A program made the position numbers and the translations under genes. DNA of 32,255 bases from Flavobacteriaceae bacterium (GTDB taxonomy: Bacteria > Bacteroidota > Bacteroidia > Flavobacteriales > Flavobacteriaceae): assembly GCA_013001365.1 (NCBI GenBank), contig JABDMQ010000371.1, positions 1 to 32,255 of the forward strand, in the 5' to 3' direction. Position 1 is the stretch's first letter. Each line of letters begins with the position of its first letter. Positions 8,133-11,181 of the stretch are shown here, piece by piece. The notes below the pieces were generated by a model that saw only the letters and a list, made by a program, of their open reading frames with translations, had not been told where the DNA came from and made no database searches.

Positions 8133-8741
8133 ATGGCTTTCGAATTACCGAAATTGAAATACGCTTACGACGCACTCGAACCACATATAGATGCCAGAAC
8201 CATGGAAATACACCACTCTAAGCATCATAATGGATATACTACTAAACTTAACGCAGCGATAGAGGGAACTGGACTAGAAGGAAAGTCAATTGAATCGATT
8301 CTTGAAGATCTTGACATGAACAATAAAGCGGTTAGGAATAATGGCGGTGGTTATTATAATCATTCTCTTTTTTGGGAGGTCATGAACCCGGAAGGTAAAG
8401 GAAGGTTGTCTGGTGAATTGAAAGATGCAATCGAGGGAGCCTTTGGTTCTTTTGATAATTTCAAGGAGGCTTTCAGTAAAGCGGCAGCTACACAATTCGG
8501 ATCAGGTTGGGCATGGCTTTGCGCCCACAGAGGTGGCAAGGTTGAGATTTGTTCGACACCGAACCAAGACAATCCTTTAATGCCAAAGGTAGGTTGCGGC
8601 GGAACACCGATATTAGGATTGGATGTTTGGGAACATGCATATTACTTGAACTATCAAAACAGGAGGCCAGATTATATTGAAGCCTTCTTTAGTGTCATTA
8701 ATTGGAATGAAGTTGAAAGGCGATACGCAGAAGTTAAATAA
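8133..8741 (+). CDS. sod: Superoxide dismutase (Fe/Mn family)
   Basis: 202 aa. [40 protein letters not shown] and [22 protein letters not shown] motifs. Confidence 0.96.
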
Positions 8742-8757
8742 TTCTTCAGGTCCATAA

Positions 8758-8800
8758 ACAACAAAAGGCCAGCTAGACAGCTGGCCTTTTGTTGTTTTAT
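8758..8800 (+). terminator. Intrinsic terminator of sod
   Basis: ACAAAAGGCCAGCT (8761-8774) pairs perfectly with AGCTGGCCTTTTGT (8779-8792) around an AGAC loop, followed by a T-rich tract. Confidence 0.92.
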
Positions 8801-8820: not shown

Positions 8821-8899
8821 AAAATGAAAAAAGGTGAACGAGAGTTCACCTTTTTTGCCCCAAATCTACCATGAACTTAACCTACTTATGTTATGGTGA
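8821..8899. repeat. Copy 1 of a ~79-nt intergenic two-hairpin repeat
   Basis: aaaatgAAAAAAGGTGAACgagaGTTCACCTTTTTT followed by GCCCCAAATCTACCATGAACTTAACCTACTTATGTTATGGTGA. Near-identical to 9092-9171, while flanking sequence diverges. Confidence 0.95.
8827..8856. terminator. Terminator-like hairpin within repeat copy 1
   Basis: 13-bp perfect stem AAAAAAGGTGAAC/GTTCACCTTTTTT with GAGA loop (8840-8843). A and T tracts flank the GC core, so it could act on either strand. Confidence 0.7.
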
Positions 8900-9091
8900 T
8901 GCTAATATAACGGAGCTTTTTCCAAATTATTGAATTTATTAGATAAAATACTTATAAATCAGGTTTAGCGGACTTTTAAAATTTAATTGAACATCCTTTA
9001 ATTCAAGGGAAATTTTATCAAACAAAAACTAAAGGACTAGTTGTCAGAAAGTTAAATTTAAAAAGAGATTTTTTTTGAATTTTAGGGATCG

Positions 9092-9171
9092 AAAATAAAA
9101 AAAGGTGAACGAGAGTTCACCTTTTTTTGCCCCAAATCTACCATGAACTTAACCTACTTATGTTATGGTGA
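9092..9171. repeat. Copy 2 of the ~79-nt intergenic two-hairpin repeat
   Basis: Same orientation as copy 1. The 43 nt after the hairpin (9129-9171) are identical to 8857-8899. The differences are one G-to-A substitution and one extra T. Confidence 0.95.
9097..9128. terminator. Terminator-like hairpin within repeat copy 2; possible terminator of the PurF-like gene on the minus strand
   Basis: 14-bp perfect stem AAAAAAAGGTGAAC/GTTCACCTTTTTTT with GAGA loop. On the minus strand it ends in TTTTTTTATTTT. Confidence 0.75.
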
Positions 9172-9282
9172 GACCAAATTATACCTTTCTTAGGTAGCAG
9201 AATAAAATAATAGATAAACGGCATTTTTTTTAGGTAAAATGCCAATATTTTAGATAAAATACGGTTTTACCATAATTTGGGA

Positions 9283-11181
9283 TTAATAGGCTCTGTCTCT
9301 ATTTCCTTCAAAAAAATTGATAAATGCCTTGTTAACCACACGGTTACCACCTGCGGTCGGGTAATTACCAGTGAAATACCAATCTCCAAGATTCTTAGGG
9401 CAGGCTTTATTAAGATTATCCACTGTTTGAAAAATTATTTTAATATCGGCATTGACATCTTCATCACTCAATAACTCAGATATCTTTTGGGATATTTCTT
9501 CATCAGTAAAGGGTTCATAGATTTCCTTTACATAATTATATACCTCTGTATCTTTTAAATGAACTTGGTCCTTACATTTTTTATAAACCTCCTCAACGAT
9601 ATCGTATTTCCCATTTTCCCTAAGAAGAGAAAGGGAGGCTCTAAAGGCAACAAGATCTTCAAGTCGGGCCATATCAATTCCGTAACAATCTGGATAACGT
9701 ATTTGAGGCGCTGAAGAAACCACAACAATTTTCTTTGCTTTAAGTCTATCCAACATCTTGATAATGCTTTTTTTCAACGTTGTTCCACGTACTATGCTAT
9801 CATCAATAATTACAAGATTGTCTGTAGGCCTGATCACTCCATATGTTACATCGTAAACATGAGCTACCAAGTCATCGCGACTGCTATCCTCTGTTATGAA
9901 GGTCCTGAGCTTAACATCCTTTATAGCGATTTTCTCGATTCTAGGTCGCTCGGATAAAATCTCTGTGACCTTTTGCGCGGAGATATTTCTCTGACCAGAT
10001 AAAATGGCATGGGTTTTTTGTTCGTTTAGATGGTCTTCAACAGATTCGATCATTCCATAGAAGGAGGTTTCTGCAGTATTCGGGATATATGAGAAAACAG
10101 TATTTTTCGTGTCGCCTTCAATTGCCTCCAAAACTTTTGGCATTAACAGTTTGCCTAATTGTTTTCTTTCTTGATAAATTTCTGCGTCACTGCCTCTAGA
10201 AAAGTATATACGTTCGAAAGAACACGCTTTTCTCTCCAGAGGCTCAATTATTTTCTTGATGTTCGTCTCACCAGATTTTTTTATGATAATCGCATTTCCT
10301 GGAGGCAACTCTAGAACCTCATCGTAATTTACATTAAAGACAGTTTGTATTACTGGACGCTCGGACGCTACCACTACAACCTCATCGTCCTTATAATAAT
10401 ATGCAGGCCTTATACCAGCAGGATCCCTGAGAACGAATGAATCCCCATGACCTAACATGCCAGCCATAGCGTAACCACCATCCCAGTTTTTAGATGACCT
10501 GCGTAATATCTTGGATACCTTAAGTCTTTCTGCGATCAAGGCAGAGCATTCTATTTTACTAAAGCCTTCCTTTTTTAGGTCCTTATATATTTTATCAACA
10601 GCATCATCGAGAAAATGTCCTATTTTCTCCATGATGGTAATAGTGTCTGTATACTCTTTAGGATGCTGGCCAAGTTCTACTAAATTGTTAAAGAGCTCCT
10701 TTACATTTGTCATATTGAAATTACCTGCAAGAATCAGGTTACGATGAGTCCAGTTATTCTGTCTTAAGAAAGGATGAACGCTTTCCACACTGTTTTTCCC
10801 GAAGGTTCCATAACGCACATGTCCAAGCAGGACTTCTCCTATATAAGGAATGTTCTTCTTTTGAAGCTCTACATTATTGCTGTACTCTGGATTCTCAGAA
10901 AGAACTTGATTTATTCTTTCATTAATTTGGTCAAATATGTCTTGAATAGGTTGTTGGGCAACCGATCTTATTCGACTTATATAACGTTCTCCCGGGTTGG
11001 TATTGAGTTTAATGCTTGCAAATCCTGCACCATCTTGTCCACGATTATGCTGCTTTTCCATCATGAGGTACATTTTATTCACACCATAAAAAGCACTTCC
11101 GTATTTTTCCTTGTAGTACTCTAATGGTTTTAAAAGCCTGATGAGCGCAATACCGCACTCATGTTTTATAGCATCACTCAT
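9283..11181 (-). CDS. Amidophosphoribosyltransferase-like protein (PurF family, long form)
   Basis: 632 aa. N-terminal glutamine amidotransferase features KHECGIALI and HNRGQDGAGFASI. C-terminal PRTase motif VIIDDSIVRGTTLKKSI. Confidence 0.88.
   Translation of the reverse strand: MSDAIKHECGIALIRLLKPLEYYKEKYGSAFYGVNKMYLMMEKQHNRGQDGAGFASIKLNTNPGERYISRIRSVAQQPIQDIFDQINERINQVLSENPEYSNNVELQKKNIPYIGEVLLGHVRYGTFGKNSVESVHPFLRQNNWTHRNLILAGNFNMTNVKELFNNLVELGQHPKEYTDTITIMEKIGHFLDDAVDKIYKDLKKEGFSKIECSALIAERLKVSKILRRSSKNWDGGYAMAGMLGHGDSFVLRDPAGIRPAYYYKDDEVVVVASERPVIQTVFNVNYDEVLELPPGNAIIIKKSGETNIKKIIEPLERKACSFERIYFSRGSDAEIYQERKQLGKLLMPKVLEAIEGDTKNTVFSYIPNTAETSFYGMIESVEDHLNEQKTHAILSGQRNISAQKVTEILSERPRIEKIAIKDVKLRTFITEDSSRDDLVAHVYDVTYGVIRPTDNLVIIDDSIVRGTTLKKSIIKMLDRLKAKKIVVVSSAPQIRYPDCYGIDMARLEDLVAFRASLSLLRENGKYDIVEEVYKKCKDQVHLKDTEVYNYVKEIYEPFTDEEISQKISELLSDEDVNADIKIIFQTVDNLNKACPKNLGDWYFTGNYPTAGGNRVVNKAFINFFEGNRDRAY

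Follow-up and report, generated by a model that had tools for sequence, protein, structure and literature searches.

The streptococcal csRNAs and the Vibrio Qrr RNAs are multicopy small RNAs (sRNAs) under one response regulator, and IstR-1 and OrzO are trans-encoded type I antitoxins. In Bacteroides, the genes of the FopS/GibS sRNAs (RF04319) are reported to lie at multiple loci (PMC11697453). In Flavobacterium psychrophilum, the third stem-loop of Rfp18 is described as pairing with metalloprotease mRNAs (PMC9723704). Here we analyze a repeat in a 32,255-nt stretch of Flavobacteriaceae DNA (the window). We consider it probable that each copy of the repeat is transcribed independently into a trans-acting base-pairing sRNA, and that these sRNAs repress the mRNA of a small protein under LytTR co-control.

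The two copies lie in direct orientation at 8821-8899 and 9092-9171, as the first-pass annotation had described. They are flanked by sod, the convergent neighbor (8133-8741, plus strand), and by an amidophosphoribosyltransferase-like gene, purF (9283-11181, minus strand), which is upstream on the sRNA strand; both are ORFs with synteny in relatives. The spacing of about 271 bp was accurate, since the identical blocks start 272 nt apart, and the identity itself held, over a block of 49 nt (8851-8899 = 9123-9171). The terminator-like hairpins are, as proposed, perfect inverted repeats, of 13 bp in copy 1 and 14 bp in copy 2. Likewise, sod has a separate terminator, distinct from the sRNA units and supported by folding, which consists of a 19-bp perfect inverted repeat at 8756-8797. 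The DNA between the copies had been called unduplicated; this is almost so, but 8933-8951 and 9244-9262 have in common a 19-nt repeat, which proves to be a half-site of the promoter (see below). The fold of each copy scored z -5.8 against dinucleotide shuffles, with 0/200 shuffles as good; the minus-strand folds of the two copies gave z -5.1 and -4.0. A search of the whole window confirmed that it holds no third copy, and none was found in the remaining host assembly (≈ 2.8 Mb, 89.5% complete).

The first-pass annotation had read the element as a hairpin followed by a block. We rejected this plus-strand order on the position of the promoter and the asymmetry of wobble pairs. Read on the minus strand, the element begins with the 43-nt block and closes with the hairpin and its T-run as a 3' terminator. 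In 230 of the 237 unique copies from relatives (shuffled mean, 32), the minus strand has a TAnnTTNG box ahead of the core, at -13 to -6. In F. psychrophilum the sigma-A box is reported as TAnnTTTG at -12 to -5 (PMC9723704), and because the spacing matches, we place the start of the sRNA at the purine before CCAUARC (8897 and 9169). The corresponding -7 boxes, both on the minus strand and conserved in position in relatives, are TATATTAG (8902-8909; TAnnTTNG) and TAATTTGG (9174-9181). The predicted minus-strand transcripts, 8827-8897 for copy 1 (start inferred from the position of the -7 box) and 9098-9169 for copy 2, match positions 1-71/71 of covariance model R1 with 93 and 89.8 bits, respectively. 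Each would begin with the same pairing region, ACCAUAACAUAAGUAGGUUAAGUUCAUGGUAGAUUUGGGGC, at 8857-8897 and 9129-9169, which folds into a weak 5' hairpin and is near-invariant in the alignment of 237 copies, and would end in an intrinsic terminator (8827-8856 and 9097-9128).

The terminator stem has changed on both sides at 13/13 pairs in relatives, and 99.2% of 302 double-changed cells remained paired in a structure-aware alignment, counts that are biased in the model's favor by the fitting of this alignment to the model. Read on the minus strand, the stem wobbles were 96 G-U versus 5 C-A. The 5' hairpin (ACCAUARC...GUUYAUGGU) is less certain, because its changes in relatives, though compatible, are one-sided only. 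Core positions 8 to 23 (16 positions) were invariant in 237/237 copies; in the copies of genus g56, which lie outside this set, the 5' arm varies. The layout is thus a sigma-A -7 box, a start purine before CCAUARC, a 41-nt near-invariant region and an intrinsic terminator. The predicted RNA of ~71 nt is mostly pairing region and terminator, with its own promoter and no conserved ORF, as expected of a base-pairing sRNA. Comparison with relatives shows that each copy has, on the minus strand, everything that makes up a ~71-nt sRNA gene, including a predicted promoter and terminator of its own, and from this we infer that the copies are transcribed. The earlier suggestion of a tandem small RNA gains support, on the strand opposite to that described. 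Of the suggestion of a terminator-coupled regulatory RNA, one point alone is right: the hairpin serves as terminator, namely that of the sRNA itself.

Further copies were found in relatives. The element was present in 30 of 60 relatives' genomes, almost all from the host's family, as tandem arrays, and a scan of the collection with a 22-nt piece of the core matched at least 120 stretches. Among the 80 loci listed, the titles name Maribacter, Zobellia, Winogradskyella, Aquimarina, Flagellimonas, Formosa, other Flavobacteriaceae genera, or broader taxa. The arrays contain 1-6 copies (1-5 per locus in named genomes, some of these arrays being cut off at the edge of the locus) at a median spacing of 211 nt, and homologues of sod and/or purF adjoin them at 98 of the 102 relatives' loci bearing copies. 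With the covariance model, the sRNA was detected in 41 of the 51 same-family genomes listed, including 24 of 26 genomes of the large genus g56, which is probably Flavobacterium; outside the host family only weak, terminator-type scores were seen. Single extra copies away from sod and purF, with differing upstream sequence and variant terminators, occur at three loci (L347, L348 and L055).

A tandem repeat containing a hairpin might be a REP/MITE-like mobile repeat, as the first-pass annotation suggested, or a bare terminator repeat. Both versions are highly improbable. The host genome holds two copies only and shows no dispersal, the sod/purF site is fixed and syntenic across the family, and a search for plasmid matches to the element yielded none; moreover, each unit has its own predicted promoter and a near-invariant single-stranded core. 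Given this distribution and the sod/purF synteny, the array is best regarded as a vertically inherited locus with local duplication.

An already described Rfam RNA, which the first-pass annotation had allowed for, was not found: the window gave 0 matches at the gathering threshold. Sub-threshold matches to BTnc231, STnc50 and FopS were mostly to the terminator and alike on both strands, and we rejected a known Rfam RNA. FopS and GibS are multicopy sRNAs of ~70 nt that block start regions, with a seed near the 5' end and an intrinsic terminator. The flavobacterial RNA is likewise multicopy, of similar length and predicted to end in a terminator; it may have a comparable 5' seed and would also block a start region. 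A 14-nt motif (UUCAUGGU/AGAUUU) can be aligned with the FopS consensus with a 3-nt gap, the order of the flanking motifs being different. On the other hand, the sRNA scores 21.8 bits against the FopS gathering threshold of 56, mostly from the terminator, and the other strand scores 13-21 bits; FopS genes are reported at several loci whereas the flavobacterial genes form a tandem array; the RRM family of RbpB, the protein associated with FopS, is missing from two array-bearing genomes, G000 and G036; and the target found here is a small-protein mRNA, not susC. In its proposed mode of action the sRNA resembles FopS and other multicopy base-pairing sRNAs, but by score it does not belong to FopS. 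The Rfp sRNAs are also flavobacterial; Rfp18 is described as acting through a third stem-loop whereas the ~71-nt RNA has two, and the latter could be one of the 85 other Rfp RNAs (PMC9723704). Our literature search found no paper describing the ~71-nt sRNA; the F. psychrophilum transcript table lay outside the comparison.

Weak matches of the element in relatives were located mostly downstream of scoB. This region contains a gene that has a -7 box of its own and comprises an ORF of 33-43 aa ending in (L)TKKxFML. It is unlinked to the sRNA array and, in the host genome, lies on contig C230 of G000 (L058/L189); the scoB-downstream loci of relatives are L190-L203 and L388-L396. Searches of Pfam and NCBIfam gave no family for the protein. 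The ORF is under purifying selection: most of the pairs that could be compared had a pS about 2-8 times as high as pN, with the signal in the C-terminal codons.

Predicted pairing between the sRNA and the start region of the small-protein mRNA ranged from -25 to -49 kcal/mol, and in 16/16 distinct genomes 0/100 shuffles were as good (z -4.1 to -11.6). It involves three blocks, CCAUA/UAUGG, GUAGGUU/AACCUAC and GAUUUGGGG/CCCAAAUC. In the host genome the sRNA pairs over codons 3-12 (-34.1 kcal/mol). In genome G036 the small-protein mRNA reached -48.7, compared with a best value of -29.2 among 996 ordinary start regions (1.2 Mb sampled). Comparison across genomes thus shows conserved and nearly perfect complementarity, as predicted from sequence, to the start region of one unlinked mRNA, and this mRNA is likely to be the main target of the sRNA. 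When duplex energies of the 996 start regions in 1.2 Mb of G036 were compared with those for 60 shuffled sRNAs, strong pairing showed no clear general excess at strong cut-offs, and k-mers were not enriched either; we rejected a broad start-region regulon on the basis of this sample. The sRNA and the small-protein gene occur together in most non-g56 genomes of the family that were tested; g56 and other families do not have the gene at scoB. Since a search of seven g56 genomes, allowing up to 3 mismatches, also revealed no further long site complementary to the sRNA, g56 must have another target or role for it.

That g56 lacks the small-protein target and yet constrains the sRNA, together with the 16 positions invariant in every one of the 237 copies, could mean that the RNA acts chiefly by binding a protein and not by pairing with mRNA. 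This we regard as unlikely, because the sRNA matches a single conserved mRNA in antisense, specifically and over a long stretch. In addition, PF00076, the RRM family to which RbpB belongs, is absent from the host genome (G000, 89.5% complete) and from G036; it is present in G163.

The same antisense match, extending over the translation start of a small peptide with a conserved LTKKxFML end, recalls IstR-1 and OrzO, and there are extra sRNA copies. The ~40-aa cationic peptide would then be the toxin of a type I-like toxin-antitoxin system, and the array its unlinked RNA antitoxin. Several features make such a system improbable. The two loci are unlinked and apparently co-regulated, sharing an activator-type site that a constitutive antitoxin would not be expected to have; inspection of the peptide by eye reveals no obvious transmembrane helix, and Pfam and NCBIfam have no family for it; and g56 retains the sRNA without having the peptide gene at scoB.

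The small-protein gene and most sRNA copies are preceded by a ~20-bp direct repeat, GYATTTCATCGAT...GNNNTTNANC, centered near -60. We searched for it with a position weight matrix (PWM) built from other promoters only, with the sRNA promoters excluded and the cut-off set at the 95% shuffle threshold. Leaving aside the GGGAYG class, 155 of 199 copies had the repeat upstream (5% expected), in most cases at -74 to -76. The 37 copies of the GGGAYG variant class lack the direct repeat and were near background (6/37 positive). In 12 genomes the repeat pattern was strongly over-represented: it occurred at 118 sites, and the reversed control at 9. Copy 2 in the window has an activator-type site of three in-register half-sites ~20 bp apart (9213-9262, minus strand; 0 and 1 mismatch; PWM 18.4), of which the pair at 9213-9242 occupies the canonical -74 position; 0/100 shuffles gave three matches. 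Copy 1 has a single recognizable half-site, GTATTTTATC (8942-8951, minus strand), with a degenerate partner, and its match is weak (93.6th percentile of shuffles). The comparison shows that the predicted promoter repeats are common to the sRNA and its likely target.

Direct repeats with a ~20-bp period at -74 to -45 have the geometry of LytTR-type promoters: LytTR sites have spacers of 11-13 bp (PMC6193735), and the AgrA site is centered near -60 (PMC4227749). A gene for a 231-aa LytTR response regulator in the priA-rpsF interval has the direct repeat upstream in four genomes, which makes its product the leading candidate regulator. The LytTR gene of the host genome has no upstream repeat at ≤ 3 mismatches. 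The LytTR response regulator with the repeat at L373, L374, L376 and L377 looks like an orphan. On this basis, LytTR control of both the sRNA array and the small-protein gene can be inferred. A set of short, almost identical sRNAs in which every member has a promoter and an activator-type site to itself is reminiscent of the csRNAs and Qrr RNAs; the phylum and the sequences are different, the putative regulator is of the LytTR type, the array is contiguous and tandem, and the target has the same promoter repeat.

The same direct-repeat promoter is also found directly before a second conserved, terminator-ended RNA of ~150 nt, RNA2, with the core TTTTTAGTTCAATGGATTAATTAATTAATATTTGCAT. RNA2 occurs at L219, L220, L222, L223, L228-L230 and L245, and in the host genome on the minus strand of contig C199 (L009/L381); four loci scanned against Rfam gave no match. 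Further repeat-bearing genes (L226, L246, L247, L248 and L221) have CCCAAATC-like leaders near the start codon; several apparently encode secreted proteins, and one a PAS-domain protein. At L378 and L380, in the host genus, a possible further RNA (TATATTTGTCNGCCTAACAACACGG...TTAACTAAATCTA) follows the repeat. RNA2 contains ACCCTAAATCTA, and the small-protein leaders hold 1-3 partial sites, as would be seen if the complementary leader were a sponge titrating the sRNAs, with the peptide secondary and RNA2 perhaps another sponge. We judge this rather unlikely. The predicted pairing of RNA2 with the sRNA is weak (z -0.6 to -4.0), and we rejected RNA2 as a pairing partner. The pairing on the small-protein mRNA is centered on the start codon or the first codons, and the purifying selection on the ORF led us to drop a pure sponge at the scoB locus.

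Translational repression by the sRNA, the reading that we favor, would operate as follows. A LytTR-family response regulator would turn on the sRNA array and its target mRNA together. The sRNA would pair through the three blocks across the start codon of the small-protein mRNA, or across its first codons in the host genome, and thereby block translation of the 33-43-aa protein. That pairing represses translation, as opposed to activating it, is assumed here. The circuit would then form an incoherent feed-forward loop, and the dosage of the repressor would be set by the array copy number. More tentatively, and at somewhat less than even confidence, these elements may form a new LytTR-controlled circuit, widely conserved in the Flavobacteriaceae, in which one response regulator co-induces the tandem sRNA array of variable copy number, RNA2 and the ~40-aa protein, and in which production of the protein is gated by the balance between sRNA and mRNA. 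Its logic would be comparable to that of Qrr and Agr, while its parts would be new.

The ~71-nt sRNA gene was previously uncatalogued and has no Rfam family at threshold. For marine and freshwater Flavobacteriia, regulation at the post-transcriptional level is still almost unexplored. A family-wide sRNA for which an unlinked target can be named, a pairing site predicted and a transcription factor proposed makes the whole circuit directly testable. It also offers a handle on the function of a conserved small protein that is unlisted in the family databases searched (Pfam and NCBIfam), and prompts the question of whether a start-codon seed of the FopS type predates Bacteroides.
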